Shown in pieces: positions 40,975-59,066 of a stretch of DNA of 64,000 nt (position 1 is the first letter of the stretch; every line of letters begins with the position of its first letter). Under the pieces are notes generated by a model that was not told where the DNA came from, did not search any database, and saw only the letters and a list, made by a program, of their open reading frames with translations. Position numbers and translations under genes: made by a program. This stretch comes from Pseudoflavitalea sp. G-6-1-2 (GTDB lineage Bacteria; Bacteroidota; Bacteroidia; Chitinophagales; Chitinophagaceae): NCBI RefSeq assembly GCF_012927185.1, contig NZ_JABBGB010000002.1:868001-932000 (forward strand), written 5' to 3'.

Positions 40975-43809
40975 TTATTGCCCGCTCTCAGGCGACAATA
41001 CAAATATTTTCAAACTGTTTGTATGCAGGTATTTTTTTGCAGTCTCCTTAAAGCTCTGCGCAGTTACGGCCTCCATCTTACTGGCCACTTCAGTGATCTC
41101 TTGAAGATCCTTTCCTACCTGCAGTTTGGCGCAGATCTGGCTAAGCCAGTATTCATTGCGCTTCAGCTGCACTTCCATGCTCTTTGCAAACTCAGCTTTG
41201 AATTTGGTCAACTCCCCGGCAGAGGCACCGTTTGTAACCAGTTTGTTCAGTTCATCTTTGGCAGCCATCGTCAATTTTTCTACCATGCCCGGAGAACAGG
41301 TAAATCCTATGCGCAATTCATACCGTTTGCTGTTTTCCAGCATGCTCATTGAAATACCTGGCGAATACACTTCATGTTCAGTTCCGCGAAGTCTTTCAGT
41401 CATTTTTAGTTGTACAATATCCCTTAACGCCGTCATATTTCCTGCGAGGTTAGGTTCTTCCTGATATGTTCCATCCAGGATCATCGTTACAGTAGACTTA
41501 TCGGTTTTCCCTTTTTGGATCAATTTGGTAAATCCGCCTTCAGGATATGTATACTGAATGTATTTTGTTCCTTCATTTCTGTTCAGGCCGGGAAGACTGG
41601 CCAGGTATTGCTGCACCATAGGTTTGAGGGTATTGAGATCCAGGCTACCCACCAGTACAAAAGTGAAATCCGAGAAATCAGCAAATCTTTCCTTATAGAT
41701 CTTCAGCGCCGTATCTGCATTGATCATATCCACTCTTTCTGCCTGGACCGCTCTTTTGCGGAAATGGTGATTGAACATTACAGCATTGATTGTGTCAGCA
41801 AATACGTTCGCCGGTTTACTGTATCGTTTCTGTGCCCGGTCTTTGGCCTCTTTGAGTATGCCGGCCACCAATTCCTTATCCAGCCTGGGTTGCGTAAAAT
41901 AGAGGTGCATCAGTTGAAAAGCAGATTCCAGATCTTTCTTACTGCTGCTTGCATTCACTCCTTCATAATTCTCACTGATAAATGGGTTTACTGTCATGGT
42001 CCTGCCCGTTAGCACTCTCGATAATGTTTTAGCGTCCAGCTCACCAACGCCTCCTCTGGACAGTATTCCAACAGCATCGATCGCAGACTGATAATCCTTA
42101 TCAGGATACAGCGAACTTCCGCCCGGACTGAATGCAGAGATCAAAATCTGGTCATTTCTGAAAGTAGTTGGTTTGAGTATCACTTTCGCTCCATTGCTTA
42201 ATTGCCAGGTAGTGATCCCCATCTCCTGATTGGTTGTTTCAGAAACGATGCTGCCTCCCTTTGGTAACTCATTCATCAGTTTCTTATTCACTTTCTTTTC
42301 TTCCTGAACAACCAGTTCCTCTTTTCCTACTTCTTCTGTCCATTTCTCCAGTTCTTCTATACCGGGAAGCTGGTCACGCTCAGTGGACGGAGCCATCACA
42401 TACACGTCGCGGTTCTTATTGTTGTAGAATTTCTCTATGAGGGACTGTACTTCTTCCAGCCCGATATTCCTGATATGCAGGTTGTAGAATTCATTGTAAA
42501 ATTCAGCAGCGGGATAAGGCACATTCTTCAAAAATGCATTCACATACACTGTTACATAATTCTGAGAAGTGACCTTGTTCCGTTCACCAAACTGATAATC
42601 TTTTTTCTCTATGAAGGAGGCTTTTGCACGATCCAGCTCATGCTGATTAAAGCCCTGCTCTTTTATCTTACGTAGCTCACGCATGATGGTCTTGAATCCT
42701 TTTTCATATTCACCCAGGTTCACCGTTACATTTACGGAAGCTGATCCAAGGCCGGCAAACAAAGATTCAATTTTTATGGCTGCACTCAGAAAGGGCATCT
42801 CAGCGCCTCTCCGCATATCATTGATCCGGTTGGCCAGCATGGTATTGAACAGAGAAGCGATCATCGAATTTCTCAGATCCAGCTCGGATTCTATCTTGTC
42901 TCTGGTTGGATATTTATGCAGCACCTGAATAGTGGCATTGGCGATCTCTTCGTCTAACACAGTCTGATAATGTTCCCGTTCTATCTGAGGTATTTTCACC
43001 TCTTCCGGTTGTGCACCATTCGCCTCCTTTTTCAGATCACTGAAAAGAGCGATGATCTTCTTTTCCATCTCAGCCGCATCGAAATCACCTACGGCAATAA
43101 TCGACTGCAGATCGGGGCGATACCAATTCTGGTAGAATTTCTGAAGATCGGCAGCCTTTGCATTCTTCAATACAGAATCGATGCCGATGGGTGCGCGCTC
43201 TGCATACTTAGCACCATTCAACAGATTGAACAGGCTTTGTTCTCTGATGCGCTGCTCCAATCCCTGCCGCTGGCGCTTTTCCGCCAGAACAATGCCCCGT
43301 TCTGTATTTACACCGGCTTCTGTGATCTCGATATTCTGAGCCCAATCTTTCAGAATGGCCAGACCGGTTCCCAGCAAACTGCTATCCTGTGTAGGAATGG
43401 GAAGCTGGTATACTGTTTCATTATAGCTGGTATACGCATTCAGGTCGGCCCCGAATTTTACACCTGCTTTTTCCAGAAAGTCAATCACATTATTTCCCGG
43501 AAAATTTTTGGTTCCGCGAAACGCCATATGCTCAACAAAGTGAGCCAGCCCACGTTGTTCATTAGTTTCATGTACTGAACCGATCTTATTCACCAGGTAG
43601 AACACCGCCCTGTTCTCAGGGTTCTTGTTCCTGCGGATATAATATTTCAAACCATTCGGCAGTTCACCGGTAATAACAGCTGAGTCATTCGGTAAGATCT
43701 TTTTCTCTAATCCTGTGAGGGATACTTTATCGTCTTTGCAGGACACTACGCCGAGGATCAGCAATAACAACACTAAGATGCCTGCTCTTCTTTTTATAAG
43801 GATGCTCAT
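40975..43809 (-). CDS. M16 family zinc peptidase lipoprotein (pitrilysin/PqqL-like)
   Basis: A 944-residue two-lobed M16 metallopeptidase. Signal peptide with lipobox LGVVSC (Cys24), so membrane-anchored in the envelope. The active inverted zinc motif HxxEH is intact: His90-Phe-Val-Glu93-His94 in LAHFVEHMAFRGT. The distal Glu is in NTERGIVLAEKRQR. The second half (from about residue 510) is an inactive paired lobe, as in the family. It degrades short unfolded peptides inside a closed chamber. It is the last gene of the minus-strand row that starts with the ECF sigma at 59066, 17 bases after the MutS-like gene. Confidence 0.94.
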   Translation of the reverse strand: MSILIKRRAGILVLLLLILGVVSCKDDKVSLTGLEKKILPNDSAVITGELPNGLKYYIRRNKNPENRAVFYLVNKIGSVHETNEQRGLAHFVEHMAFRGTKNFPGNNVIDFLEKAGVKFGADLNAYTSYNETVYQLPIPTQDSSLLGTGLAILKDWAQNIEITEAGVNTERGIVLAEKRQRQGLEQRIREQSLFNLLNGAKYAERAPIGIDSVLKNAKAADLQKFYQNWYRPDLQSIIAVGDFDAAEMEKKIIALFSDLKKEANGAQPEEVKIPQIEREHYQTVLDEEIANATIQVLHKYPTRDKIESELDLRNSMIASLFNTMLANRINDMRRGAEMPFLSAAIKIESLFAGLGSASVNVTVNLGEYEKGFKTIMRELRKIKEQGFNQHELDRAKASFIEKKDYQFGERNKVTSQNYVTVYVNAFLKNVPYPAAEFYNEFYNLHIRNIGLEEVQSLIEKFYNNKNRDVYVMAPSTERDQLPGIEELEKWTEEVGKEELVVQEEKKVNKKLMNELPKGGSIVSETTNQEMGITTWQLSNGAKVILKPTTFRNDQILISAFSPGGSSLYPDKDYQSAIDAVGILSRGGVGELDAKTLSRVLTGRTMTVNPFISENYEGVNASSSKKDLESAFQLMHLYFTQPRLDKELVAGILKEAKDRAQKRYSKPANVFADTINAVMFNHHFRKRAVQAERVDMINADTALKIYKERFADFSDFTFVLVGSLDLNTLKPMVQQYLASLPGLNRNEGTKYIQYTYPEGGFTKLIQKGKTDKSTVTMILDGTYQEEPNLAGNMTALRDIVQLKMTERLRGTEHEVYSPGISMSMLENSKRYELRIGFTCSPGMVEKLTMAAKDELNKLVTNGASAGELTKFKAEFAKSMEVQLKRNEYWLSQICAKLQVGKDLQEITEVASKMEAVTAQSFKETAKKYLHTNSLKIFVLSPESGQ

Positions 43810-43826
43810 AATAAAAAATAAAGTGA

Positions 43827-45182
43827 TTAACTGTAACGCAATTTCTTTGATGGAAAGAGATCGAAGATCCCTTCCTGCCGGATGATCATCATGCCATGGC
43901 GATCATCCGAAATACCCTCCTGCAACGTATAGGTGTAGCGGGTTGCATTGGCTTCCAGCAGAGAGGGCATGTATTTATACTGTATGCCAACTGCTTCCTT
44001 TTGCAGCAGAGCGCCAACTTCAACAATATGGGTTGAAAGCACAAACAGGCTCTGCTTATAATCCAGCATGGCTCTGGCCACTCCGGAAGTAGCATCGAAG
44101 GCATCTTTTACATTGGTACCCTTGAACAACTCATCAAAAATGATGAGCAACTTTTTTCCCGCTGCCACTTCTTTCGCCACCTCTTTTACACGCAATACTT
44201 CAGCGTAAAAATGACTGTAACCTTTACTGATATTATCGGGCAGATTGATGGAAGAATACAAACCATCATACACCGAAGTTTCCATCTCCTTAGCAGGAAC
44301 AGGAAATCCCAAATGAGCGAGGTAGCAACAAATCCCAATGGTTTTCATGAAGGTGGATTTCCCCGCCATATTAGCTCCTGTAAGGAACAGCATGTTTTGC
44401 CGGGCATCCAGCTGCAGATCATTTCCAATGGCCTTTTTCAAACCGGGATGATACGCTCCTTTCAGCTTCAGCAGCGCCTTTCCATGAAGGATCACCGGAC
44501 AGCAATAATTATTCTCCTCCATCAATTGTGCAACACCCAGAAAAACATCCAGCTCATAACAATCACGGAGAAGGGAATTGAATGTTTCATGGTTATCGCC
44601 ACGCAGGAATGATTCATATTTACTTTGTTGCATAACCGATAATCTGTCACCAGCAATATGCGCTTCAAACTGGTCCAGCAATTTGTTCTCCAGCAAGGCA
44701 CTGTACCGGCCGGTTAGTTTTTGCAGATAGCCGGACTCCATACCCGTTAATGTGCCCCTGAACCAGTCACGCAGTTTCAGCAATGCTTTTAAACCTTCAG
44801 TGAGCAGCGTATACACATGATCCTGTTCTTCTTTCATACCTGCCAGCGCAACGGATCTTCTTTTGAGTACCTCTGTGAACAACTTCACCTTGCCTACCGG
44901 TGCGAAGCTGGTGAGATATTGTTCCAACGCCTCCAATTCTTTTTCCTCCACCGGAAAAGCAAGCGCTTTGCTCACCAGTGAACTGATGCTGCGCTGCCTT
45001 TCTTCTATAGCAGCTGCCTCTGTAAGTGGATGTTGAAAATACGTTTCGAGCAACTTCTCTCCCCCCTTCGTTCTTGTACGGTTATACAGGGAGAAAATTG
45101 AATCGGTCTTATACTTACCCAATAAGTTGAGGTCTTCCGTAGTTTGCCTGTCGGTACAAAACGATCTCGCTTCCTTATTCAT
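43827..45182 (-). CDS. MutS-like ATPase without mismatch-recognition domain, second copy
   Basis: A 451-residue protein from the ATG at 45182 (the eight-base ATGAATAA overlap with the upstream stop supports this start). It has a MutS lever/clamp-like domain (residues 1 to about 250) and the MutS ABC-type ATPase: Walker A FLTGANMAGKSTFMKT, signature GYSHFYAEVLRVKEV, Walker B LLIIFDELFKGTNVKD and the switch STHIVEVGALL. The mismatch-binding domain I and connector domain of MutS are absent, and the GRGT after the Walker B Glu is replaced by FKGT. It is a close paralogue of the preceding gene, and the two may form an asymmetric dimer. The DNA-related role is not established. Confidence 0.85.
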   Translation of the reverse strand: MNKEARSFCTDRQTTEDLNLLGKYKTDSIFSLYNRTRTKGGEKLLETYFQHPLTEAAAIEERQRSISSLVSKALAFPVEEKELEALEQYLTSFAPVGKVKLFTEVLKRRSVALAGMKEEQDHVYTLLTEGLKALLKLRDWFRGTLTGMESGYLQKLTGRYSALLENKLLDQFEAHIAGDRLSVMQQSKYESFLRGDNHETFNSLLRDCYELDVFLGVAQLMEENNYCCPVILHGKALLKLKGAYHPGLKKAIGNDLQLDARQNMLFLTGANMAGKSTFMKTIGICCYLAHLGFPVPAKEMETSVYDGLYSSINLPDNISKGYSHFYAEVLRVKEVAKEVAAGKKLLIIFDELFKGTNVKDAFDATSGVARAMLDYKQSLFVLSTHIVEVGALLQKEAVGIQYKYMPSLLEANATRYTYTLQEGISDDRHGMMIIRQEGIFDLFPSKKLRYS

Positions 45183-46524
45183 AGATTTTTTCTTTCTTTC
45201 CATTCGCTAATATGTCGAGAATGCCTTCGTTCTGGATGATCAGCATACCATGACGATCCTCCGTTACTCCTTCTGTTAAGACATAGGTGTACACAGGTTG
45301 ATGATCTTTCATCACGGTTGGCATATAAGCATACCGGATGTTCCGGCACTGATGGCGGAGATCATCCGCAGCTTCCACAATATGGGTTGATACCAGCATC
45401 AGGCTGTTCTCCAGTTCTGAATAAAGTGCAGTAACGGCAACGGTAGCTTCATGTGCATCTTTCACATTGGTTCCGCGGAATAATTCATCGAATATGATGA
45501 TGAGCTTTTTACCGGCAGCCAGTTCCATGGATACTTTTTTCACCCGCAATACTTCGGCATAAAAATGACTATGCCCCATTTGAATATTATCGGAAAGATT
45601 GATAGTGGTATACAGGCCATCACTCACCGTAAACTTCATAGATAAGGCAGGGACAGGCAAACCGATATGCGCCAGAAAAACCGTGATACCAAAGGATTTC
45701 ATCAGGGTAGACTTTCCTGCCATATTAGCTCCGGTAAGGAACAACACCCGCTGTGATGCGTTCATTTCTATATTGTTCCCCAATGCACCGGGTACCAGCG
45801 GATGGTAAAAGCCCTGAATGTGCAGTTGCTGATCGCCATCGGGCAGTACTTCAGCAAAGGCCAGCTTTCTTTCGCGGGCAACGGTGGCAACAGAAATATA
45901 CAGATCTAACCAGTATACATACTCTAAGATATGCTGCAGCTGATCGTAATGGGTAAAGCGGAAGAATCTGTCGCCGGAAGCGATCTGTTCAAAACTCAAA
46001 CGTGTTCCCACCAACGAGGAATAGGCGGCTTTGAACTCCTGATTATTCAGGATGCTCTTTACCTCTTTCTGCATTTTTTGAAACGCAGAAGATTGTCCAT
46101 TCTCATTGGTTTGTTCCAGAAAACTGTTCAATCGCGTCAGGCACTCTCCTATTGCTTTCAGGGCTTTTTGAGTGAAGTTCAGTTGTGTGTCTGCCTTCAA
46201 CCATTTGTTCAGCTTACTTTCCATGGTTTCACCATCCGCTCTCAGCAGGGTTCTGCTGTCGCGATCGGATAAATAAGCTACCATCACCTCAATCCAAACA
46301 GCTTCCAGCGGGAAGGTGGCCGAAGTGCTGCAAAAGAATTGAATGGTTTGAGTACGCTCTCTGATCTCATCCGCACCGGTGGTGGGATAATGGAAGATAT
46401 GTTCCAGCTTCTCCGCACCGCCTGTTGTGCAGGTACGGTTAAAGAGAGCATAAACAGAATCCTTTCCTTTTTTACCGAAGATGTTGAGATCATCCAGTGT
46501 TTGTTTATCTGTATTCCAGATCAT
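45175..46524 (-). CDS. MutS-like ATPase without mismatch-recognition domain, first copy
   Basis: A 449-residue paralogue of the downstream gene with the same two-part layout. Walker A FLTGANMAGKSTLMKS, signature MGHSHFYAEVLRVKKV, Walker B LIIIFDELFRGTNVKD and STHIVEAADDL are all intact, so the ATPase should work. The N-terminal 250 residues are helical and lack the mismatch-recognition and connector domains. Paired MutS-like ATPases inside a transport operon are unusual for repair proteins. They may use the MutS clamp mechanism on another substrate. The gene starts 18 bases after the GldFG stop and overlaps the second copy by eight bases. Confidence 0.85.
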   Translation of the reverse strand: MIWNTDKQTLDDLNIFGKKGKDSVYALFNRTCTTGGAEKLEHIFHYPTTGADEIRERTQTIQFFCSTSATFPLEAVWIEVMVAYLSDRDSRTLLRADGETMESKLNKWLKADTQLNFTQKALKAIGECLTRLNSFLEQTNENGQSSAFQKMQKEVKSILNNQEFKAAYSSLVGTRLSFEQIASGDRFFRFTHYDQLQHILEYVYWLDLYISVATVARERKLAFAEVLPDGDQQLHIQGFYHPLVPGALGNNIEMNASQRVLFLTGANMAGKSTLMKSFGITVFLAHIGLPVPALSMKFTVSDGLYTTINLSDNIQMGHSHFYAEVLRVKKVSMELAAGKKLIIIFDELFRGTNVKDAHEATVAVTALYSELENSLMLVSTHIVEAADDLRHQCRNIRYAYMPTVMKDHQPVYTYVLTEGVTEDRHGMLIIQNEGILDILANGKKEKIYE

Positions 46525-46542: not shown

Positions 46543-48831
46543 TTATCTGGCCTTTCTTCTCATCCAAATAAATACACCCACCAAAGCCAGCACCAGCGGG
46601 AATCCGATCTTTAGCAATCCTCCCATCAACTTCCATGATCCGGAACTGAGTTTATTGTCGATGGGTGGCGCCAGACGCATATCGATGGGCGCTTTGCCAT
46701 CACTCAACCAGAAGAATGCGGCCGCGATCAGGTAATAATTGGCGGCTCTCAGTTTCGGTCTGTTGATGCCGAGTTCTTTGTTGCTGAGCCAATCTGCATC
46801 ACCTGTAACCAGTATTTTCTGTTGCTTATCATTCACCGTTCTGCTCAGGGCCATTACTGCAGGATACTCCTGTTCGGATTCGTCTTTTTCAACATCCAGC
46901 ACAGGCAGTTTATCGATAGTATTGAAACTGTCCTTTTCAATCCAGATGCCTGATGCAGGCGTTCTGAAAAGTGTGGTGGCCTCGAATCCTTTCGACGGAT
47001 CGAACTGCAGCACAGCGCTTCCTGCCAGCGCAAGTGAATAATTCTGCTTCTTCATTTCTTCCAGTTGAAAGGAAAATTTAGCAGCTTCATCGGATGGACG
47101 CAACGCAATAACATCGGGTTGAAGATCTTTATTGGCATGCACCAGCGTACCAGGGAGGAATTTCACTCCGATCTCTTTGGTGATCTCATTCATCTGTGCT
47201 GCAACATCCGGTTCACCTGCGATGATGAGGTTTCCACCTCTGGCGATATATTTTTCCAGGTTTTGCAGCTCCACCGGTGAATACATTTTCCTCGGCTCTG
47301 CAATCACCATTATCTGAATATCGTTGGGCACTTCGGACAAGAGGGAGATATTCGTAAAATCAAATCCCTGATTGAGCATGGAATGACGGAAAGTTTTTTC
47401 CTGCGTCACCATATTGTATCCTCTGTCCTGGTTGGAATTACTCTGCCGTTCTCCATGGCCTTCCACAAAACCCACTTTGGGCAATTCCATCACCAGGCGT
47501 TTAAAAGCTGCCGTTACTTCTGCTTCGTTCGGATGCACCATCATATCATTGAAGATGCGCAGGAATGTTTTTTGTCCGTTCGCTGCTTCCAGTACATGCA
47601 CATAACGGTAATCCTCTCCTGACAGATCTACTTTATCACTGATCTCATCATAGGACTTCACATCGAACGACCAGTCGTTCAGGATCTTCAGAGAGTCCAT
47701 TCTTTCAGAGTCGGACAGTTCCGGGAACCGGGTTTCCAGATAGGGAAAATTGGCACGATGGTAATACAGTGTTTGTTTTAATGTGAGATCGGTTTTGAAA
47801 CGGAGATATTTCTCAAACCGCTGTGCTTCGCGCTTGTAGAATTTCGGCAAGCCATAGCTGTAATGCCTGTCAAGCATATTCACGTACGTATGAATGGTCA
47901 ATGGTCCTTTCAGCATGTCAACCACTTTCTGGCTGTTCTCGCTGATGGTATTCACTTTTGAGTAAGTGGTATCGTAGTAGACCTTACACGAAGGCAATGC
48001 ACTCACATAACCTACCATGCAAACCACTATCAGCGTTATTGCATACCTTGAAAAAGTAGCCCAGGCAGCCGTTTTCTTTCTTTCCACCTGCAGTTTGATG
48101 ATGGTGAATGAAACAAAGAGCAGTATCACCATGATAAAATAGAGCAGGTCTTCCGATGTGATCAAACCTGAAATGAAAGTGTTGCTTCTTCCGGCGAGAG
48201 CGATCCAATACGTTATATCCCTCACGAATGCGATCTCCTGCCACCAGCTTTTCATCAGATTGAGCAATGCCAGAATGCCCAGTGTACCGATGGCTGCCAC
48301 TACGGTATAGGAAGTGATGGACGACATGAACAGGCCCACTGCAGCATACGCACAGATCAGCAGAAACAATCCCAGCAGTGCACAGAGTACAGCGGGATAA
48401 TCAAAGTGCTCAATGGTGAATGCGCCATGCAGGCAAAACATACCCAATATCCCGATCAGTGCAAATGCAAAAACGATCAGCGCCAGATATTTTCCCAGCA
48501 CTATCTGAAAGCTGTTGATCGGTGAGGAATACAGGAGTTTGATGGATCCGCTGTTGAACTCGCGGCTGATAACACCCATCGTCAGCAATGGAATGTATAA
48601 ATAGAGATAGCTCTGAATATTGGCAAAGAAGCCATCAATCGGATTATTGAAAATATTCTGTGTGATATTCCGGGTAGCCTGTCCCACAATATCCTTGTGC
48701 GCAAGAGCACCATAAAGATTGGTGTACACAATACCTGTCTGCAATGCAAAGATCACCAGCACCAGCCAGGCAACCGGAGAATAAAACAAAACCTGCAATT
48801 CCGCCTTTGCAATCCTATATGTTGTTTTCAT
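46543..48831 (-). CDS. fused GldF-GldG type ABC transporter permease
   Basis: A 762-residue protein joining two parts that are separate genes in gliding bacteria. Residues 1 to about 245 are a GldF/ABC-2 permease with six membrane helices and the typical FNSGSIKLLYSSPINSFQIVLGK loop. After a further helix (YAITLIVVCMVGYVSAL, about 265-281), residues 290-735 form the GldG-like (ABC_transp_aux) exposed domain with VGFVEGHGERQSNSN, YIARGGNLIIAGEPD and KILVTGDADWLSN. A last helix (IGFPLVLALVGVFIWM) anchors the C-terminus. It works with the ATPase encoded 32 bases upstream. The substrate is unknown; no other gliding genes are present here. Confidence 0.9.
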   Translation of the reverse strand: MKTTYRIAKAELQVLFYSPVAWLVLVIFALQTGIVYTNLYGALAHKDIVGQATRNITQNIFNNPIDGFFANIQSYLYLYIPLLTMGVISREFNSGSIKLLYSSPINSFQIVLGKYLALIVFAFALIGILGMFCLHGAFTIEHFDYPAVLCALLGLFLLICAYAAVGLFMSSITSYTVVAAIGTLGILALLNLMKSWWQEIAFVRDITYWIALAGRSNTFISGLITSEDLLYFIMVILLFVSFTIIKLQVERKKTAAWATFSRYAITLIVVCMVGYVSALPSCKVYYDTTYSKVNTISENSQKVVDMLKGPLTIHTYVNMLDRHYSYGLPKFYKREAQRFEKYLRFKTDLTLKQTLYYHRANFPYLETRFPELSDSERMDSLKILNDWSFDVKSYDEISDKVDLSGEDYRYVHVLEAANGQKTFLRIFNDMMVHPNEAEVTAAFKRLVMELPKVGFVEGHGERQSNSNQDRGYNMVTQEKTFRHSMLNQGFDFTNISLLSEVPNDIQIMVIAEPRKMYSPVELQNLEKYIARGGNLIIAGEPDVAAQMNEITKEIGVKFLPGTLVHANKDLQPDVIALRPSDEAAKFSFQLEEMKKQNYSLALAGSAVLQFDPSKGFEATTLFRTPASGIWIEKDSFNTIDKLPVLDVEKDESEQEYPAVMALSRTVNDKQQKILVTGDADWLSNKELGINRPKLRAANYYLIAAAFFWLSDGKAPIDMRLAPPIDNKLSSGSWKLMGGLLKIGFPLVLALVGVFIWMRRKAR

Positions 48832-49875: not shown

Positions 49876-51399
49876 TTAACGCATAATACCGCTTTTAACG
49901 GTTATATCTGCAATGCGACCCAGACCCGTCATACGATGTAACTCAACAGGGGCGGGCAATGTAAGGGAAGCATCGGAAATATTATAGAGCATAACGGTGC
50001 CATCTTCCAGACCCACCGCCAGTTCAAGGGAATTGTCCGACTGGCACATGGCAGTGATCTTGCTTCCGTAAGAAGTGAAGAGTTTGGCTGCACTACCCGT
50101 GATCATATCATAATAATACAGATCGGTATTACCAGCGCCGCCGGAGAAGAAAATGAAATTTCTGCTCTTGATGCCAATGTACTTTGATTCAGAATTTACC
50201 AGGCTGCTGCCGGTAAATGGTTTTCTGGCTTTAGGAGAAAAGCTCATCACACGATTCACATTGCGCATGGTAAACGACTGCATATAGATCTGCGTTTCTC
50301 CCGGTTTTCTCATCAGCACCACTCCATCGGAGCTGAGGCTACTGCCAGACTCATTGAAAGAGCCGCCCCATACATATTGCCAGTCTCCCATATGATTGAA
50401 GTTTACATGATCTGCAGGATATGGTGTGGCTGCTGCCGGATTCGGCAATGTATCGATAACCACATAACCACCGGTTGAATGAAGGCCGTTCAACGAAAGG
50501 AAAAGTATCCTGTTATTCAAAGAGTCATACATGAAGTTCATGAGGGTTGCCATGGAGTGGGAATTCCACAGATCGGTGATCTTCATTCCATGCAATGTGG
50601 TCATTGGAAAATTCAACCAGGGCATCGAAAATGGTACAGGCGAATTGGAGAATAATCTGGGATATACCTCTCCGTTGGTATTCACCAGCAGATGTGCATT
50701 AGGATAGAAGCCCATATTTACGGCATCGGTATTGGCAGGCGCGCTGCCGGCGAAAGCATCTTTGAGCCGCAACCTCTTCTGCAGGCTGTAGGAATCCAGT
50801 TCCACTGTACCCTGACCTCCCTGCTGCATTACCACCAGGCTCCATACACCTGTTACCGGATAGTTCTTCAGCTTTATGGGTTTGCTTCCCAGGGATTCCC
50901 CATTGTTTTTTCTTTTATAGATGTCCCGGTCGTCTACATACAGTTTTTGAGTGGCATCGTAACGAATATGCGCCAGCTCCGATTCTCCATCTTTTTCATA
51001 GAGGATCCCGTAGCCGTTCTGATAGGGAGAGGCCATCTTCAGCATCAGATTTGAAGAGAAGTATTTGACCTTTGTTGTTTTATCCACCATGCAATAGTTG
51101 ACCGGCAAAGTTGCGGGCGCCGCTGCTGTGAATACCAGAATGGAATCGGTACCCACCAGCTGATCACTCACATACCATTCATGATTGTAATCCGCTGCTG
51201 TTTTGGATGGGTCGCTATATACTCTGATAGCATCGATAGTGACCGGCATGTCGATGAGTGCATCCATATTGGGAGCCTGAAACCTAATAGTAACGGGGCT
51301 TCCGTCTTTATAGGAATAATTGCCCCTGTCTTTGATACATCCCGGTAAAGAAATGAGCAGTGTGGCTGCAACAGCATATACAGAAGATCGTACTTTCAT
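49876..51399 (-). CDS. PKD-like family surface lipoprotein
   Basis: A 507-residue lipoprotein with signal peptide and lipobox SLPGC. The N-terminal part (INYSYKDG-like GNYSYKDGSPVTIRF, WYVSDQLVG) matches the PKD-like group found with SusC/SusD loci. The middle and C-terminal parts look propeller-like. The protein probably sits on the cell surface and helps capture ligand for the SusC channel. The stop of the DUF4843 gene lies 17 bases upstream. It is the last of the outer-membrane genes before the ABC genes. Confidence 0.82.
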   Translation of the reverse strand: MKVRSSVYAVAATLLISLPGCIKDRGNYSYKDGSPVTIRFQAPNMDALIDMPVTIDAIRVYSDPSKTAADYNHEWYVSDQLVGTDSILVFTAAAPATLPVNYCMVDKTTKVKYFSSNLMLKMASPYQNGYGILYEKDGESELAHIRYDATQKLYVDDRDIYKRKNNGESLGSKPIKLKNYPVTGVWSLVVMQQGGQGTVELDSYSLQKRLRLKDAFAGSAPANTDAVNMGFYPNAHLLVNTNGEVYPRLFSNSPVPFSMPWLNFPMTTLHGMKITDLWNSHSMATLMNFMYDSLNNRILFLSLNGLHSTGGYVVIDTLPNPAAATPYPADHVNFNHMGDWQYVWGGSFNESGSSLSSDGVVLMRKPGETQIYMQSFTMRNVNRVMSFSPKARKPFTGSSLVNSESKYIGIKSRNFIFFSGGAGNTDLYYYDMITGSAAKLFTSYGSKITAMCQSDNSLELAVGLEDGTVMLYNISDASLTLPAPVELHRMTGLGRIADITVKSGIMR

Positions 51400-51416: not shown

Positions 51417-52118
51417 TTAACCAATTAAGGGAAGACTGGCCAGCATATCCGATCCATCTTCCAGCAAGAGGGGCGTTCCGTTTTCCTTCATTTCTATCAG
51501 GTGATATTTGAAGCGAAGCATCAGCACGCGTTGTTCGTTGGGATCATATGCATCGAGATCCCCCACGCCAGTAACATCCATGAAAGCCCTGAATTTTTTT
51601 TCCGAATAAATGCCTAAATAGAACCTGTCCATATCTGCATTCCACCAGCCTGGTTTGGCAATGAGATCACTGATCCTGAAAACGCGGTAGGCATAATTGG
51701 TCTGCCCGGCTTTCACTTCTTCCGTATCCTTTATTCTGATAGTGAGCAGCACGGCTTCAGTGGCCAGCTGAGGAATATTTCTGAAAACGATATGTGCAGT
51801 ATCCTGCGTAAACCCTGCCCTGTATCTGAATACAGTGGGCAGCGTGTAGGTAGTGGAAGGCGCATTGGTCTTATCCTGCACCACTTCGATCATATAGTTC
51901 AGATCTTTTTGAGGCATAGTGCCTGTCAGTTTCACGGGCATTGCCAGATCCACTGCAGTTTTTCCGGGATGGAAGAAAAAAGAGAACTGCGTAGTGTCTG
52001 TAAAAGCAGTGGTGAACTGTATGTAATGATCACCTTTATAAGTAGGGATGTCCCTCTTTGAACAACTTTGTACAAAGAGCCCGGTAAATCCCAATAATAT
52101 TATTGCCAATTGTTTCAT
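51417..52118 (-). CDS. DUF4843 surface lipoprotein
   Basis: A 233-residue lipoprotein with lipobox LFVQSCSK (Cys19). The body has the DUF4843 features: the DHYIQFTTAF opening, an all-beta first domain and RNIPQLATEAVLLTIRIKD. The C-terminal segment LRFKYHLIEMKENGTPL is also typical. DUF4843 proteins occur together with PKD-like lipoproteins and RagA/RagB-type SusC/SusD pairs. From memory, similar four-part sets have been tied to uptake of oligopeptides, so the ligand here may be a peptide, but that is not shown by this sequence. Confidence 0.85.
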   Translation of the reverse strand: MKQLAIILLGFTGLFVQSCSKRDIPTYKGDHYIQFTTAFTDTTQFSFFFHPGKTAVDLAMPVKLTGTMPQKDLNYMIEVVQDKTNAPSTTYTLPTVFRYRAGFTQDTAHIVFRNIPQLATEAVLLTIRIKDTEEVKAGQTNYAYRVFRISDLIAKPGWWNADMDRFYLGIYSEKKFRAFMDVTGVGDLDAYDPNEQRVLMLRFKYHLIEMKENGTPLLLEDGSDMLASLPLIG

Positions 52119-52136: not shown

Positions 52137-53609
52137 TTAGTAAATGACTTCTCCTTCCGGAATTTTGAATGTGAACCTTTCATCCATGGGAATCAGCTGG
52201 GTGCTGCTGGCCTGTATTCCTCTTCCCAGTCTTTTGTAAGCGAAGATGGTTTGTCCTTCTGTCAGGAATTCCCTCCGATATTCATTTAGTAACTCGTTAT
52301 AGAAACCGGTTTCCGACTGGTCGCTGAAAATGTTGATCTTACCTCTTGCTACACGCACCTGATTGAGAATAGCAAGAGCATCTGCGGTTAGTCCTTTACG
52401 GTATAATGCTTCGCTGTAGATATAACAGATCTCACTCAGGCGAAGCACAGGAACGAAGGTATTCTGCTGAGGCCTGTATGTGGCGGTTGAACTGGTAGCT
52501 ACCCATTTCTGGCTTACCATATCGGTAGATACTGCAGCATCCGGAATCAGCAGGTTGAGCCGGTAATCTCTTTCGGAAGACGGGAACCAGGCAGATACTT
52601 GTTTATTGATCCTATACCTTACAGTGGTGCCTTTGTATGTGGTAATATCGGTTACCAGATCTGTGTTGAATGAGCCAAACAACACATCATCCGCAAACTT
52701 GGTATAGATGTTTGCGCCTGCTGCATTGGCAGAAGAAGTGAACTCCCACCATTTTTTAGTGCCTGAAGGTCCGTAGCTATACACATAGGCTGCTTCATTC
52801 AATGCGCGCTCCGCATCACCTGCATACAATGCTACTTTAGCCAGCAGACCTGCGATGGCAACATGGTTCAATCGCATCATGCGGAATGAGAAAAAACGTT
52901 CTTCCGGAATAATGCTGCCCACCAAACGGCTGGCGAGTTTGCCGCTGAGCGAGGCTCTGTTGAGAATGGTATCGTTCTCTGCTACCAGGTTCTTCGCTTC
53001 TTCCAGGTCGCGCTGAATGTTTTGCAGCACAGTGGAAGTGGGTGATGGTGCCGTGTAATAGGATGGATATTTGTCTACGTAAGGGATGTATTTTCCCGAC
53101 AGGTCCAGCGCAGGAGAAGGCGCAAAAAGTCTTACCAACTCAAAATGAAGCAATGCACGCAAGGCCATCGCTTCTCCCATGATCAGTTTTTTCTCCACAT
53201 TGCCAAACTGGAACAGCCCGGTATCCTTATTCTTTATTTCAGTGATCAGTTTATTGCTGTTGGCAATAGCTTTGTAGGCGTTGCCCCAGATACTTGTTCC
53301 CAGTGCGAGCACAGTGGGATCTGTCTGAACGAAAGTGGTGGCGGCATTTTGGTATTCCTGTGAAATATCATTGCCGATATAATCCTGTGCCAGCGCACTG
53401 TTGAGGCCCCATGTGAGATTTCTTCCATACAGGTTCCCTTCAGCAATGTATTGGTATATTCCATTCAATGCATTCCGGAATCCGATGCCTTCACTGAAAA
53501 GTCGTTCCTGTGTGATCTGATCCGTAGGCTTAACATCCAACCATTTATTACAGCCGGAAAAAACAAGTACACAAAGTACTACTGCTATATGTTTAATGAA
53601 TGTATTCAT
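52137..53609 (-). CDS. RagB/SusD family nutrient-binding lipoprotein
   Basis: A 490-residue surface lipoprotein. The signal peptide ends in lipobox LVFSGC, followed by NKWLDVKPTDQITQERLF, the standard SusD N-terminus. The helical TPR-like core continues (AMALRALLHFELVRLFAP) and the C-terminus has VLRLSEICYIYSEALYRKG and YRREFLTEGQTIFAYKRLGRG. It forms the lid over the SusC channel. It follows the SusC gene after a 26-base gap. The RagB-type features fit a non-glycan ligand but do not prove one. Confidence 0.94.
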   Translation of the reverse strand: MNTFIKHIAVVLCVLVFSGCNKWLDVKPTDQITQERLFSEGIGFRNALNGIYQYIAEGNLYGRNLTWGLNSALAQDYIGNDISQEYQNAATTFVQTDPTVLALGTSIWGNAYKAIANSNKLITEIKNKDTGLFQFGNVEKKLIMGEAMALRALLHFELVRLFAPSPALDLSGKYIPYVDKYPSYYTAPSPTSTVLQNIQRDLEEAKNLVAENDTILNRASLSGKLASRLVGSIIPEERFFSFRMMRLNHVAIAGLLAKVALYAGDAERALNEAAYVYSYGPSGTKKWWEFTSSANAAGANIYTKFADDVLFGSFNTDLVTDITTYKGTTVRYRINKQVSAWFPSSERDYRLNLLIPDAAVSTDMVSQKWVATSSTATYRPQQNTFVPVLRLSEICYIYSEALYRKGLTADALAILNQVRVARGKINIFSDQSETGFYNELLNEYRREFLTEGQTIFAYKRLGRGIQASSTQLIPMDERFTFKIPEGEVIY

Positions 53610-53635: not shown

Positions 53636-56600
53636 TTACAATACGATCTTTACAGTTAAATCATAGTTCCTTGCGAAAGGATAAGAAGTTCCCCGCTCCT
53701 GCATGATGGTCGACCAGGTGGCCAGGTTATTGGACGACAACTGCACTTTCAATCGCGAGATGCCGAATCTTTGCAGTTTTTTCGACACCAGGTCGTAAGC
53801 GAGGCTCAGCGAATTGAACCGCACAAAATTGTTATCCTGTATGAACCTTGAGCTGGGTCTTGTGGTGAAACTCCGGCTGGCTATGTCTTTCAGGGGAGTG
53901 ATGTCGCCCGGTTTCACCCATCTTTGCAGCAAGATCCTTTTATCGCCATTCTTATTGTAGAGGTCTACGTTTTCCACTTTAGTTACCAGCGTTTTGTTGT
54001 ATTCCTGCGCACCGTACTGATACAGGAAAGATGCAAAAAGTGAAAAAGCTTTATAGCCGATATTGAATCCGAATGAACCCTGGCCTTTTGGAGAATAATC
54101 TCCAATGATAGTTTGATCGGAGGCTGCCCAGTCGTAGGTAATGGTACCATCAGGACGAACATACACTTCCTTACCGTCCATAGGATTAATGCCAAGCGAT
54201 CGCATTCCGAAAATGGAAGTGAGAGATCCTCCTTCTACATACTTGGTATACGGCGTGGAATATTTACCGAGGAATTGAGGGCTGGTAGGAGTGTTTCCTG
54301 TAAAGCCATCGTACTGTGTATTTACGAGGTCGTTGTATTTTTTCAGAGAGTTGGATAATTCCAGTAATTCGTTCCTGTTGTGTGCGAAGTTCCCATAAAC
54401 TGAAAACTGAAAATCTTTTTCACGAATGATATTCGCTCTCACAAATACTTCGAAACCTTTGTTGCGCACCTTACCGATATTGTCTTTGTAACTGGTAAAG
54501 CCGGAAGAAAGTGGAAGGTCTACATCGTTCACAAGATTGTTGGTGATCTTGTTGTAGAGATCGATGTTCACAGACAGCAGGTCTTTAAAGATCCCTACAT
54601 CGAGTATCAGGTCGTAGGTGGTTGTTTTTTCCCAGGTCAGCGCGGGAGATTCCATGCCCATAAGGAAAGCGCCGTTACCGGTTGCATACCATTTGTCCTG
54701 ATAAGTGAACAAACCTTTTGCCGCGTAAGGAGGGAAATTGGTTTTACCCAGCTCACCCGTTGTTCCTGTTAATCTCAGCCTGTTGAAAATACCAAGCTCT
54801 TTCACCCATTTGTATTTATGGAAGTTGATACCGGTACCCACCGACCAGAATGGGGCAAAGCGATTATCGGAACCGAATTCGGAGGAACCATCGAGACGGC
54901 CTGAAACATCCAGGAGGTAAATATCCTGGAAAGCATAGTTCATGGTAACGAAACTGCCGAACAAACGGGTATGATTATCCGAGTAGCCGGGTTTGCGCAC
55001 AATTTTGTTGGCGAAATTGGGAGAGTTCTGCGAGCCCGAGGGGAAGCCGGTGTACAGCTCGGCAGACATGGTCACTTTTGTTTCGCGGGCATTCATGCCT
55101 CCTGAGAAATTGAAACTGTGTCCGGCAAAACGATTTTCATATCGTACGAACAGATTAGAATTAAATCCTTTGTTGATGGTTTTGGTGCGTGCCAGCTCTC
55201 CGATATTGCTGAGGTCTGTATTGTTATTGAAAGAGTATTTACTGGAAGCAGGGTCGGTAAAAATATCCGTCCAGGAATCCTGCCTGGTGAGTGCCAGGTC
55301 TGCCCTTAACTGGAATTTGGGTAAGAAGTTCCAGATGATGGCTGTGTTATTCACTAAGCTGTAATAACCGTTCTTATCAAAACTATTGGTATGGTAAGCT
55401 TCGTACAGGGGATTGAACCGGTTGGCGACAGATTCGATTGCCACATGCCATTCAGTGGTATTTTTTACAGGGCGACCATCCGGTCCGTAGATCTCATCGT
55501 AAGGCGCTTTGCTGGTATACGCGCTGAATTCGCCGTAAGGAGAAGCTTTGGCATCTACCACATCATACGTAATGTCGTTGCGGATCTGGAATTTCTTTTG
55601 TCTGTAATCGATTCCCAAACCTCCACCTTTTCTTTCGCGGAAGGAGGATTTCATCACACCATTCTGCTTATCGTATTTCACCAGAAAATTGAAGCGCAGG
55701 TTATCTGTACCACCATCGATATTGAGCGTGTGTTTGTGATTGAATACATTCTGTACCGGCTGTGCGATCCAGTCTGTATTCACACCACGGGCAATTTGAT
55801 TTTGTTTCATCAGCAACTCTTTCATGAGTGCTCCTTTGTTAACGGGAGTCATGCCGGGTGGAGGAATGTAATAACCAGCGAGGACTTCGGCCTCCAGTTT
55901 TTCTGCAGCGTTCATCAGGTTATAATCGGAAAGATCGGGTAATGATAAAGACCCTGCCATCGTATAATCCAATCTCAGTTTGCCGGGTTCGGGCGCAACT
56001 GTTTCGATCACCACTACTCCATTGGCGGAGCGGGAGCCGTACACAGCCGTTGCTGCAGCATCTTTCAGAATGGTGATGTTCTTGATTCTGGTGATGTCGA
56101 AATCATACACGCGTTCAGCAGATACTTCGTATCCATCCATGATGAAGATGGGAAGGTTGGGATTGTTGGTGAGTGCTGCCTGCGACACATCCACCTGATC
56201 CAGCGCCTTAACGCCAATGCCTGAACGCCCTCTGATATAGAACTCGGGAAGCGTATTGGGATCACTGCCCATCACATTGTTGACTTCGATACGGAAAGAA
56301 GGATCGAATACCTGCAATACATCCACCAGATTCCGGTTACTTACTTTGAGCAGGTCTTTCTGTGTTACCTGGATGGAGTTGCCGGTAAAACTTTCTTTTT
56401 TCATGCGGCTGTATCCGGTCACTACTTCGTCCAGCGTTTTTTCGGCCATCTGCAACTTAATGAGGACAGAAGTGGCATCAGCGGTTACTTTATGTGTGGC
56501 TTTTTCAAACCCTACATAGGAGATCTCAAGTACATCGCCTGCGTTCACCTGCAGCGTGAGTTCACCGGTTGGCCCGGTAACTTTGGAGCTGCCACTGTTC

Positions 56601-57109
56601 TTATTGGTGACAGTAGCGCCGGTGAGGGCATTCCCATCTGCACTTACAACTTTTATTTTAAGCTGTATCGGCGGGATGGGAATGGGGGAACCGGCCCCGT
56701 AGGAAGATAACGGGCTTCCCAGGCTTTTATTCCCTTCGGCAATTATTTGCCGGGTAATGAATACAGTTCTGTCGGCAATCCGGTAATTGAGCGGTTGCCC
56801 TTTTAATAATCTTTCCAGGAAATCATCCAGCGGAAGATCCTTTGCTTTTATAGAAACAGGTTTAGTGTTGGAGAGCAGCCCTTCTTTGTAGAGAAAAACA
56901 AATCCTGTTTGTTTTTCAATTTCCGTAAACACTTTTTCGAGTGAAGTGCCGGAAGCGGAATAAGTAATATTCTGGGCCAGGCCATTGGCGCTCACATTGA
57001 GGAACGCAGCAGTTAGTAAGAGTACAGTCAGCTTCATAGCTAATAACATTTGAGCAATCCCCCGGTGCCTCCACCAGGCGAACGGGGAACAATAAGCAGT
57101 TTTTGGCAT
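53636..57109 (-). CDS. SusC/RagA TonB-linked outer membrane protein with STN domain
   Basis: A 1,157-residue outer-membrane TonB-dependent transporter. A long N-terminus with signal segment (LTVLLLTAAFLNVSANGLAQ) is followed by an STN domain (LEKVFTEIEKQTGFVFLYKEG), which passes the ligand signal to FecR. A carboxypeptidase-like beta domain (about 150-235), the plug (VIETVA, SRMKKESFTGNSIQV, GRSGIGVKALDQVDVS) and the beta barrel to the end (YPFARNYDLTVKIVL) follow. The adjacent FecR and sigma genes make ligand-induced expression very likely. It takes up the substrate captured by SusD. Confidence 0.96.
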   Translation of the reverse strand: MPKTAYCSPFAWWRHRGIAQMLLAMKLTVLLLTAAFLNVSANGLAQNITYSASGTSLEKVFTEIEKQTGFVFLYKEGLLSNTKPVSIKAKDLPLDDFLERLLKGQPLNYRIADRTVFITRQIIAEGNKSLGSPLSSYGAGSPIPIPPIQLKIKVVSADGNALTGATVTNKNSGSSKVTGPTGELTLQVNAGDVLEISYVGFEKATHKVTADATSVLIKLQMAEKTLDEVVTGYSRMKKESFTGNSIQVTQKDLLKVSNRNLVDVLQVFDPSFRIEVNNVMGSDPNTLPEFYIRGRSGIGVKALDQVDVSQAALTNNPNLPIFIMDGYEVSAERVYDFDITRIKNITILKDAAATAVYGSRSANGVVVIETVAPEPGKLRLDYTMAGSLSLPDLSDYNLMNAAEKLEAEVLAGYYIPPPGMTPVNKGALMKELLMKQNQIARGVNTDWIAQPVQNVFNHKHTLNIDGGTDNLRFNFLVKYDKQNGVMKSSFRERKGGGLGIDYRQKKFQIRNDITYDVVDAKASPYGEFSAYTSKAPYDEIYGPDGRPVKNTTEWHVAIESVANRFNPLYEAYHTNSFDKNGYYSLVNNTAIIWNFLPKFQLRADLALTRQDSWTDIFTDPASSKYSFNNNTDLSNIGELARTKTINKGFNSNLFVRYENRFAGHSFNFSGGMNARETKVTMSAELYTGFPSGSQNSPNFANKIVRKPGYSDNHTRLFGSFVTMNYAFQDIYLLDVSGRLDGSSEFGSDNRFAPFWSVGTGINFHKYKWVKELGIFNRLRLTGTTGELGKTNFPPYAAKGLFTYQDKWYATGNGAFLMGMESPALTWEKTTTYDLILDVGIFKDLLSVNIDLYNKITNNLVNDVDLPLSSGFTSYKDNIGKVRNKGFEVFVRANIIREKDFQFSVYGNFAHNRNELLELSNSLKKYNDLVNTQYDGFTGNTPTSPQFLGKYSTPYTKYVEGGSLTSIFGMRSLGINPMDGKEVYVRPDGTITYDWAASDQTIIGDYSPKGQGSFGFNIGYKAFSLFASFLYQYGAQEYNKTLVTKVENVDLYNKNGDKRILLQRWVKPGDITPLKDIASRSFTTRPSSRFIQDNNFVRFNSLSLAYDLVSKKLQRFGISRLKVQLSSNNLATWSTIMQERGTSYPFARNYDLTVKIVL

Positions 57110-57224: not shown

Positions 57225-58409
57225 TTATTGAACTATCAGAATGCGGTTCTCCAGTTTTAGCTTCAGCTCATTATCCGATAAGAATTTAATTACATCAGCC
57301 AGCGCTACGCCCCTGCTCATTTTGCCACGGAATTTTATAGCGGGCATCGGGCCTTCGTAGCGAACTTCAATATCGTACCAGCGTTCGAGCTGCCGCATGA
57401 TCTCAACAAGCGGCATGTTCTCAAAATTAAAATGGCCATTTTTCCAGGCCAGTATCTGATCGGGGTCAATTTTGGGAGCGATGGTAATGGCATCGCCAAC
57501 CCTTGCCTGCTGGCCCGGTTGAAGTATTTCGGACTGATCTCCTTTGCTTATCCTCACCTTTCCTTCGATCAATGTTGTTTTACTATTACTTTCATTGTCG
57601 TAGGCATTAATGTTGAAGCTGGTTCCCAGCACTTCGATGGAAGACCTGTCCTCTACCTCCACGATGAAAGGTTGTGCAGCATTTTTAGCTACTTCGAAAT
57701 AAAGCTCTCCGGCAATTTTTACTGAACGTTTCTTTCCGGTGAAGATGGCAGGATAGGTAATGGAAGATGCAGCATTCATCCATACTCTGGTGCCATCGGG
57801 CAAAGTGAGTTTGTATTGTCCGCCTTTGGGTGTTCGCAATGTATTGGTCATTACTTTTCCGTCAGGTGTGCCATTGGGATTGTAGACGATGGATCCATTG
57901 GATTGCTTTTCAATTGCAGCAGTTCCTTGTTGAGCAATGATCCCGGTAGCGGAGCTATCGAGCACGATGGATGATCCATCTGCGAGTGTGAGTATTGCTT
58001 TATTGGTGCCGGGTAAAATATCTTTTGCAGTAAGGTTGTTACTGATCTCTGCTGATCCGGTATCCTGTTTGAACAGCAGGAACCAGGAGGCTGCTCCGAG
58101 GATCAATACAATAGCGGCGGCCCATTTCAGTCTGCCGGCAGATCTGATGGAGAATAAACGCCTGCGGGGTGCAACGTTGGGTGACGCCTGCTGGCCGGCA
58201 ATGTTTATGATGGTTTCCTGGATCTGCAATAACCTGTTTTCCTGCATTGGCTGGCCGCTGATATATCCTTCTGCTATTGCATCGCGGATCAGCTTCCTGC
58301 TTTCAGACTCATGAGCTGCATCGGTCATGAACTCCAGCAACGCTTTGAGTTCAGCCTCTGTAGCCCTGTTCTCCATTGCTTTTTTGTACAATTCATCTAT
58401 ATGAGTCAT
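57225..58409 (-). CDS. FecR-type anti-sigma factor / signal transducer
   Basis: A 394-residue inner-membrane protein that relays the signal from the SusC STN domain to the sigma factor. The cytoplasmic N-terminal part (MTHIDELYKKAMENRATE) binds the sigma factor. The transmembrane helix (LKWAAAIVLILGAASWFLLF) lies near residue 105. The periplasmic FecR domain follows (ILTLADGSSIVLDSSATG, NTLRTPKGGQYKLTLPDG, VWMNAASSITYPAIF), then a DUF4974-type end (FENMPLVEIMRQLERWYDIE). ATG 58409 is preferred to a start at 58448, which would add 13 residues of low quality. It lies 60 bases after the sigma gene. Confidence 0.95.
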   Translation of the reverse strand: MTHIDELYKKAMENRATEAELKALLEFMTDAAHESESRKLIRDAIAEGYISGQPMQENRLLQIQETIINIAGQQASPNVAPRRRLFSIRSAGRLKWAAAIVLILGAASWFLLFKQDTGSAEISNNLTAKDILPGTNKAILTLADGSSIVLDSSATGIIAQQGTAAIEKQSNGSIVYNPNGTPDGKVMTNTLRTPKGGQYKLTLPDGTRVWMNAASSITYPAIFTGKKRSVKIAGELYFEVAKNAAQPFIVEVEDRSSIEVLGTSFNINAYDNESNSKTTLIEGKVRISKGDQSEILQPGQQARVGDAITIAPKIDPDQILAWKNGHFNFENMPLVEIMRQLERWYDIEVRYEGPMPAIKFRGKMSRGVALADVIKFLSDNELKLKLENRILIVQ

Positions 58410-58469
58410 AACGGAAAATAAATGCTTTCTTATAGAGACAACATTCACTATCCGTTTTGGGGGAGTGGG

Positions 58470-59066
58470 CTATAAATATTTTTTTGCTTCTGTGAGAATC
58501 AGAATAATGGGGATGGATTTGTCTAATCGCGAAGTACAATAGGCCCGGATGATCCGCATGGCCTGTTCCAGATGCGATTTTACAGTTTCAGCAGAAACAT
58601 TCATCTGCAGGGCTGCTTCTTCGCGTTTGTATCCCTGTTCCTTAATGAGCTGGTATGCTTCGCGCTGGCGGGGCGAGAGTTGTTGAACAGCTTGCTGTAA
58701 CAGATCGGTCAGTGCGTTCTCCTGGATTTCTTCCTGATTGATTTCTTTGTAGAAGTCGGCGACCCAGCTCTTAACGTCATTTTTTTTGCGCAGGGATTGT
58801 TTGATCACATTCAATGCCATGTTCTCTGCCACAGTATTCAGCCATGCAGTGAAATTGTCGAGCGCAGGTAAGGTGTCGCGCTTCATCCAAACTTTGAGGA
58901 ATAAGTCCTGTACTACTTCTTCGGCCATCCACTGGTCTCCGGTCAAGCGGAGTACGGCATGATACACACCTATATGTTTTGCCCGCATGAGCTGGGTAAA
59001 AGCTGCTTCGTCGCCGGATGCTATTTGCAAGAGAAGCTCTCGTTCATTGTTAAGTAGGGCAAACAA
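58470..59066 (-). CDS. FecI-type ECF RNA polymerase sigma factor
   Basis: A 198-residue ECF sigma factor, first gene of the eleven-gene row. Region 2 holds FTQLMRAKHIGVYHAVLRL and AEEVVQDLFLKVWMKRD; region 4 holds LSPRQREAYQLIKEQGYKREEAALQMNVSAETVKSHLEQA. It is followed by fecR and susC, the standard cell-surface-signalling order. A TACATTTG box 30 bases upstream provides basal expression, and the sigma factor is expected to amplify the operon on induction. Confidence 0.95.
   Translation of the reverse strand: MFALLNNERELLLQIASGDEAAFTQLMRAKHIGVYHAVLRLTGDQWMAEEVVQDLFLKVWMKRDTLPALDNFTAWLNTVAENMALNVIKQSLRKKNDVKSWVADFYKEINQEEIQENALTDLLQQAVQQLSPRQREAYQLIKEQGYKREEAALQMNVSAETVKSHLEQAMRIIRAYCTSRLDKSIPIILILTEAKKYL

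Follow-up and report, generated by a model that had tools for sequence, protein, structure and literature searches.

A conserved ABC-GldFG and MutS-like gene cassette joined to varied SusCD uptake genes in Pseudoflavitalea and other Bacteroidota

Several described systems each resemble one part of the locus reported here, including the peptide importers BT2263-BT2264 of Bacteroides and RagAB of P. gingivalis, the gliding transporter GldA-GldF-GldG, the ATP-binding cassette (ABC)-2 systems NosDFY and PmtCD, and the MutS family of ATPases. To our knowledge, the job of GldFG-type ABC machines is still open for gliding bacteria. On peptide import, a BT2263/64-peptide complex is mentioned in a passage of PMC7782687, and room for deca-glycine in a passage of PMC11817032. 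MutS-family ATPases have established roles in DNA repair, recombination, and ribosome rescue, and the relative MutS2 works away from DNA by splitting stalled ribosomes, as parts of PMC12292046 relate; MutS-like proteins encoded near adenosylcobalamin enzymes are proposed in excerpts of PMC9164220 to aid metalloprotein assembly. Here we examined a row of 11 minus-strand genes at positions 40975-59066 of a 64,000-nucleotide stretch of the Pseudoflavitalea sp. G-6-1-2 genome (assembly GCF_012927185.1, contig NZ_JABBGB010000002.1, positions 868,001 to 932,000), referred to as the window. This operon is best described as a conserved back end (ABC ATPase, fused GldFG, MutS-like 1, and MutS-like 2) joined to SusCD front ends that vary from copy to copy. 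The front end is of a known kind, a SusCD/FecIR uptake operon, and the conserved back end is apparently new to us; a partial literature search found no description of the cassette, and an earlier mention in Krishnan et al. 2020 (NAR), which reportedly deals with MutS-like proteins near cobalamin enzymes, is possible. The features of the row are as follows, from upstream to downstream.

58470-59066, minus strand: FecI-like extracytoplasmic function (ECF) sigma factor (Pfam Sigma70_r2 and r4_2)
57225-58448, minus strand: FecR anti-sigma factor/sensor (Pfam FecR and FecR_C; one transmembrane-like segment at residue 107)
53636-57109, minus strand: SusC/RagA TonB-dependent transporter with STN signaling domain (Pfam STN, E = 1.5e-10, and Plug; TIGR04056 at 548.5 bits against a cut-off of 368.25)
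52137-53609, minus strand: SusD/RagB lipoprotein (Pfam SusD-like_3 and SusD_RagB over cut-off; lipobox)
51417-52118, minus strand: DUF4843 protein, probable surface lipoprotein (Pfam DUF4843, 2.2e-25; VQSC N-terminus seen by eye and missed by a simple lipobox pattern)
49876-51399, minus strand: PKD_2 protein, probable lipoprotein with a propeller-like C-terminal stretch (Pfam PKD_2, 3.9e-15; weak WD-propeller matches)
49829-49844, minus strand: hairpin (inverted repeat) between front end and back end
48864-49793, minus strand: GldA-like ABC ATPase, back-end gene 1 (ABC_tran; TIGR03522 at 270 bits, cut-off of 402.6 not reached)
46543-48831, minus strand: GldF-like ABC-2 permease fused to a GldG-like periplasmic domain, back-end gene 2 (Pfam ABC2_membrane_2 and ABC_transp_aux)
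45175-46524, minus strand: MutS-like ATPase 1 with domains III and V only, back-end gene 3 (Pfam; Walker A GANMAGKS, DELFRGT)
43827-45203, minus strand: MutS-like ATPase 2, its gene overlapping that of MutS-like ATPase 1, back-end gene 4 (Pfam; Walker A GANMAGKS, DELFKGT)
40975-43809, minus strand: M16 peptidase lipoprotein, optional accessory (Pfam Peptidase_M16 and M16_C; HFVEH motif; lipobox)

Families were assigned to the 11 window proteins by Pfam and NCBIfam. All open reading frames were found at the positions given by a prior sequence-only reading of the window, and the gene order, families, gaps of no more than 115 bases, and single overlap that it described were all confirmed; from upstream to downstream, the gaps are 21, 115, 26, 18, 17, 82, 32, 18, -29, and 17 bases. 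The ECF sigma factor, FecR, and STN-bearing transporter make up a complete FecI/FecR/STN signaling gene set, and the SusC that scores over its curated cut-off and adjoins a SusD lipoprotein identifies a SusCD locus. No carbohydrate-active enzyme was detected among the 11 Pfam-scanned proteins, in agreement with the claim that no classical glycan-degrading enzyme is encoded, and the row does not classify as a polysaccharide utilization locus.

Genome contigs were scanned for the operon-type MutS. The loci analyzed (numbered with the prefix L) are the best 80 of at least 515 encoding stretches and represent the closest relatives; 68 have at least 6 kb of upstream sequence. The MutS-like pair was tandem or fused in all 80 (fused in 19). 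Among the 68 loci, the same strand carried GldFG in 63, the ABC ATPase in 63, SusC in 60, and SusD in 62, with the ABC count made without an open reading frame filter that hid ABC genes (L048 and L119) and lowered it to 62, the other counts being the same. Two of the eight stretches without SusC (L070 and L090) end before the SusC position. Adjoining DNA with exact overlap revealed that four of the five loci without GldFG are permuted, in the order MutS-MutS-ECF-FecR-SusC-SusD-DUF4843-PKD2-ABC-GldFG, such that in 67 of 68 loci (63 plus the 4 permuted) the MutS pair shares its gene row with ABC and GldFG. In permuted orders (L028, L029, L039, L059, L031, and L048), SusCD, ABC-GldFG, and the MutS pair still stand together. 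Median gaps within the back end were 11 bases (ABC-GldFG), 5 bases (GldFG-MutS), and -4 bases (MutS-MutS). The loci derive from Chitinophagaceae, Sphingobacteriaceae, Odoribacteraceae, Rikenellaceae, Dysgonomonas, Galbibacter, and unclassified Bacteroidetes; the closest ortholog, L023 (same named strain as L059), encodes a first MutS-like protein 83% identical to that of the window.

The linkage was also evident at the level of whole genomes. Operon-type MutS (E < 1e-135, a threshold set once the matches were known) and GldFG (E ≤ 1e-100) were found in the identical 8 of 60 family genomes, an outcome of 1 in 2.6e9 if the two sets were independent, and in stretches from six of those eight genomes GldFG stood beside the MutS pair in 8 of 8 cases (L150-L157). 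When 80 genomes were drawn evenly from the phylum, GldFG was detected at 1e-60 in only 3, the window's own genome included, and thus the cassette is patchy in the phylum. Chance neighborhood is ruled out by the recurrence across own-genome and related loci. The claim of the sequence-only reading that the row is one system and not two neighbors is upheld by the 67 of 68 loci and the shared 8 of 60 genomes; the arrangement that would have spoken against it, with the two parts at unrelated places, occurs in a minority of relatives only.

The window's own genome holds many copies. A MutS_V search returned 26 matches, 20 of which fall in ten operons of one plan (the window, L009, L010, L013, L014, L016, L017, L018, L019, and L020). 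Further operons, L120 and L121, are cut after GldFG by contig starts and bring the total, together with L119, to about 13, with 17 full-length GldFG copies among them. The genome of Pseudoflavitalea rhizosphaerae, of the same genus and the source of L059, has 36 GldFG matches, 35 of which span the whole profile. Contigs C1 (L120) and C2 (L121) begin about 130 bases past GldFG, and C3 (L021) and C4 (L022) end inside a MutS-like gene; since these contigs start or end at GldFG or MutS-like genes, the operon copies probably broke the assembly. L009 and L010 are neighboring operons (C2:1428000-1463000), one with fused MutS and M16, the other with neither.

When eight of the ten own-genome operons were compared (L010 and L018 left out), median identity was 57% for the ABC ATPase, 48 and 47% for the MutS-like proteins, and 40% for GldFG, against 27% for SusC and 26% for SusD; in six operons it was 38% for FecR and 29% for the ECF sigma factor. 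The back end is therefore the constant part of the plan. A quick tree was built from 77 GldFG proteins, with the SusD type known for 70; on it the type changed 14 times against a minimum of 2, and the well-supported branches alone forced at least 9 changes for one SusD type. The labels SusDa/b/c, Mx1, and DUF4397 are hidden Markov model labels made for this analysis; on checking, the DUF4397-labeled L017 and Mx1-labeled L018 proteins had no Pfam match, and that of L013 fell just under the Peptidase_Mx1 cut-off.

The MutS-like pair was examined for domains, motifs, and fold. Pfam detected MutS III and V alone in the window pair, besides weak generic ATPase matches, and likewise in the fused pair of L066; domains I (mismatch), II (connector), and IV (clamp) were not detected in either. 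The MutS1 of the same genome served as a control and displayed II, III, IV, and V, with the scanned stretch beginning inside the gene such that domain I is without a control. The Smr, KOW, and clamp domains that mark MutS2 were also not found by Pfam in these two pairs. Walker A and Walker B are intact in both window proteins and in those of the 8 other own-genome tandem pairs examined, and in L010 the two genes form one 897-residue open reading frame with two Walker A motifs. The AlphaFold2 model of a fused pair (predicted local distance difference test [pLDDT] 85.1, predicted template modeling score 0.76) matched MutS chains in all 50 listed Foldseek matches. With a MutS V fold, Walker A and B, and a paired arrangement, the proteins classify as MutS-fold ATPases. 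A tree of first versus second genes, built from 24 of the 80 loci and 8 of the 10 own operons (30 pairs, after the fused L010 and L066 were dropped), contained one well-supported set of 30 rows composed of 27 first and 3 second genes; the second genes did not form one clade. The tree shows an old split of the partners with three swapped gene orders, as would be expected for a heterodimer.

Other MutS-family genes were also noted. In the window's genome, a 594-residue protein (L012:5604-7388, minus strand; C3 at about 1301600) has MutS III and V by Pfam and hydrophobic stretches near its N-terminus and middle that by eye are possible membrane segments. Another gene (L011:7870-9183, minus strand; L138-L149), which encodes a lone MutS-like protein of about 440 residues and is separate from the operon pairs, stands beside a gene that by eye is dihydroorotase-like in 10 of 12 fetched loci as well as in L011. 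As a control, the 12 lone MutS-like loci of the family had no GldFG, SusC, or SusD within their 4.1-7.0 kb; in stretches this short, not finding SusC says less than not finding the abutting GldFG.

The ABC-GldFG machine was compared with its gliding counterpart. None of the NCBIfam equivalog cut-offs was reached, with GldA at 270 of 402.6 bits, GldF at 81 of 288.5 bits, and GldG at 32.9 of 389.85 bits. A canonical gldF that exceeds its cut-off (304.9 bits) is a separate gene elsewhere in the same genome, and thus the window GldFG is not the gliding transporter. The AlphaFold2 model of GldFG (pLDDT 87.9) was matched by Foldseek to IFT52 (2e-7), NosDFY (7e-4), and weakly PmtCD (about 0.01). By profile, the IFT52 match falls in the GldG half, and the NosDFY/PmtCD fold match is presumably made by the GldF half. 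GldFG is duplicated in tandem or repeated after M16 in L018, L019, L120, L121, L048, L063, and L062, and these duplicated genes may encode heterodimeric permeases. In Butyricimonas (L094:12685-17330), an outer-membrane efflux protein (Pfam OEP) is encoded after the cassette, together with what look from their sequences like a membrane-fusion protein and a MacB-like ABC set.

Clues to the ligand came from the accessory genes. The sequence-only reading had counted the M16 peptidase as a member of the system; the ABC-GldFG-MutS-MutS block proved constant and the window peptidase carries its HFVEH motif, while M16 itself is an optional accessory, found in 31 of the 80 loci (some stretches end early). 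A group of AhpC/TSA-DUF4369 (thioredoxin-like) proteins, three of whose members were examined by Pfam, occurs in 13 of the 80. An S41 peptidase is encoded in the own-genome operon L020, and L089 and L091 encode proteins 58% identical to it. These recurrent M16, S41, and thioredoxin-like partners are suggestive of a peptide-like ligand, either peptides or proteins.

Induction by such a ligand would fit the ECF/FecR/STN-SusC anatomy. The hairpin at 49829-49844 recurs in L023, the closest ortholog, where one base pair is compensated and a T run follows about 10 bases downstream; of five other PKD_2-ABC gaps that were folded, four (L009, L034, L066, and L090) do not have this hairpin and L010 has a different one. 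The hairpin may be an attenuator or mRNA stabilizer, lowering or stabilizing back-end expression, and its position between the PKD_2 and ABC genes is no proof of two units. A second ECF-sigma-like gene lies between the lipoprotein and ABC genes in L018 (13343-14158), L020 (11546-12220), L120 (5900-6685), and L121 (6034-6807). Outside the operon, a tRNA-Leu (caa) gene is located directly upstream (59270-59352, plus strand); a mobile island at this site was set aside, as the 3′ end of the tRNA points away from the operon. A separate pair of ECF sigma and RskA-like anti-sigma genes lies downstream beyond an AraC-type gene (37924-39241, minus strand).

With moderate confidence, we read the row as one ligand-inducible envelope operon in which the outer-membrane front end varies and the inner-membrane/cytosolic back end is constant, with optional M16, S41, and thioredoxin-like helpers. 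In the proposed mechanism, (i) the SusCD complex would capture a peptide-like ligand; (ii) ligand-loaded SusC would signal through STN and FecR to the sigma factor and raise expression; (iii) TonB would drive the ligand into the periplasm, where peptidases may trim it; (iv) ABC-GldFG would act at the inner membrane on the ligand, or on fragments of it, in a NosDFY/PmtCD-like manner, with the direction of transport being that of extraction, export, or mechanical loading; and (v) the MutS-like pair would act as a cytosolic heterodimeric ATPase with the ABC machine or an intracellular target, not on DNA mismatches. From the linkage, we favor the pair as an ATP-driven partner of the ABC machine. 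It seems dependent on this machine, as the pair accompanies ABC-GldFG in all of the loci counted except L046 and ABC-GldFG occurs without the pair in L119.

Several observations weigh against this reading or narrow it. As the 80 loci are the best of at least 515 matches, the linkage figures apply to close relatives. In L046, a fused MutS pair stands in a stretch without GldFG, and L119, in the window's own genome, has SusCD, ABC, and GldFG and no MutS. The fetched stretch contained no SusD for 5 of 67 cassettes (L026, L027, L036, L042, and L063), and 7 of the 10 PKD_2 matches in the window's genome (one below the cut-off) are separated from any GldFG by more than 50 kb; the two modules can thus exist apart. 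SusD types also cluster on the GldFG tree, four labels requiring 17 changes where shuffled labels gave 34.3; types that change often yet cluster more than shuffled labels indicate that the SusD-GldFG pairing is partly inherited and partly exchanged. For the ligand, 49 of the 80 loci are without M16 (some stretches end early) and HExxH is absent from four Mx1-like lipoproteins of the own-genome copies, and therefore the peptide reading is not universal. Some solved SusC relatives besides RagA and BT2264 are, we presume, glycan systems. Finally, the TM-scores of the fused-pair model against single MutS chains were low (0.33-0.38 by query length), and the modeled arrangement of the two MutS halves is therefore tentative.

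A bolder extension of the one-operon reading, which we offer as a tentative possibility, is that the cassette represents a new class of envelope machine, in which an ABC-2/GldG complex active at the inner membrane would be gated or powered by its own MutS-family heterodimer. Such a machine might serve as a plug-in for many SusCD receptors and have been multiplied by arms-race or foraging selection. If true, this would give the MutS fold a role in membrane transport.

We regard as unlikely, yet as the strongest competing explanation, that the operon confers immunity to peptide antibiotics or bacteriocins, with SusCD and the lipoproteins sensing or admitting a toxin, ABC-GldFG removing it from the inner membrane, proteases destroying it, and the MutS pair shielding an intracellular target. 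The ABC ATPase does score with the drrA (194 bits), lantibiotic-protection (187 bits), and PmtA (117 bits) models, all of these under their cut-offs and after GldA, and the weak PmtCD match of the GldFG model points the same way. The strong expansion in the two Pseudoflavitalea genomes (17 and 36 GldFG copies), together with the divergence of the front ends, is compatible with an arms race; however, expansion fits foraging as well. PADLOC, applied to six of the 11 proteins, had no match for GldFG, the MutS pair, M16, or PKD_2, and the ABC ATPase matched 28 of its models, the best being mad3 at 108 bits. GldFG had no match in a plasmid collection, nor MutS-like 1 in a phage collection (the reverse searches were not run). 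The defense or resistance role suggested by the sequence-only reading is not supported so far, yet it keeps a low probability.

Handling of a cofactor or metal appears less probable still. Here a metallophore or corrinoid-like ligand would be imported, GldFG would perform loading in the manner of NosDFY, and the MutS pair would be a KamB/KamC-like reactivase or metallochaperone. This explanation would account for the NosDFY-like GldFG model and FecI/FecR regulation, and would agree with the metalloprotein-assembly role proposed for MutS-like proteins near adenosylcobalamin enzymes (excerpts of PMC9164220). The window pair matches KamC (NF052383) at 104 and 120.5 bits; however, these scores are far under the 300-bit cut-off and under those for MutS NF003810 (138 and 156 bits). 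No protein in 61 genomes exceeded the KamC cut-off, and the matches at 1e-50 in these genomes fell in frames some 700 to 1060 residues long that we take for MutS1 and MutS2. No cobalamin-dependent enzyme was detected among the labeled operon members or the few Pfam-scanned accessories, most unlabeled neighbors being unscanned.

It is very improbable that the MutS pair serves in DNA repair or ribosome rescue and accompanies the uptake operon as a stress-response factor. Its MutS fold by AlphaFold2 and Foldseek and the splitting of stalled ribosomes by MutS2 would allow such a role, but domains I, II, and IV went undetected in the pair. According to parts of PMC12292046, MutS2 uses its clamp domain IV to bind the ribosome, to which Smr and KOW recruit it; none of these domains was found here by Pfam. 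Moreover, a stress factor need not accompany ABC-GldFG in 67 of 68 loci. That two unrelated adjacent units are being read as one deserves almost no credence: each module does stand alone in some places and a hairpin separates them in the window, but SusD is on the same strand in 62 of 68 loci and GldFG in the MutS-pair row in 67 of 68, across several families and with permuted orders included.

One inducible uptake operon with a dedicated back end therefore remains the preferred reading. A MutS pair without recognizable DNA-binding domains, tied to ABC-GldFG and to inducible-looking uptake, hints at an undescribed job for the family. Occurrence in several Bacteroidota families, with a dozen or more copies in single genomes, provides a repeated natural experiment on what the MutS pair does, and the cassette is a testable case for the function of GldFG-type ABC machines.

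The window operon was compared with the closest known systems. Its SusC is homologous to those of BT2263-BT2264 and RagAB; the nearest solved chains are the SusC homolog 8aa4, which scores higher against the window SusC, and RagA, with BT2264 further down, and any ligand class drawn from this homology is thus tentative. The ABC ATPase, permease, and periplasmic domains are homologous to those of GldA-GldF-GldG, but all three score under the equivalog cut-offs and GldF and GldG are fused. The GldFG model resembles NosDFY and PmtCD in fold, whereas its periplasmic part is IFT52/GldG-like and a MutS pair is present. With the MutS family, MutS2, and KamC, the pair shares domains III and V, the fold, and the Walker motifs; unlike them, it lacks I, II, IV, Smr, and KOW by Pfam, is tandem or fused, and is linked to a membrane transporter. 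Finally, the order of ECF sigma factor, FecR, STN-bearing SusC, SusD, and lipoprotein is that of SusCD/RagAB loci under FecI/FecR-STN control, to which the window operon, with no glycan-degrading enzyme, adds an ABC-GldFG machine of its own and a MutS-like pair.

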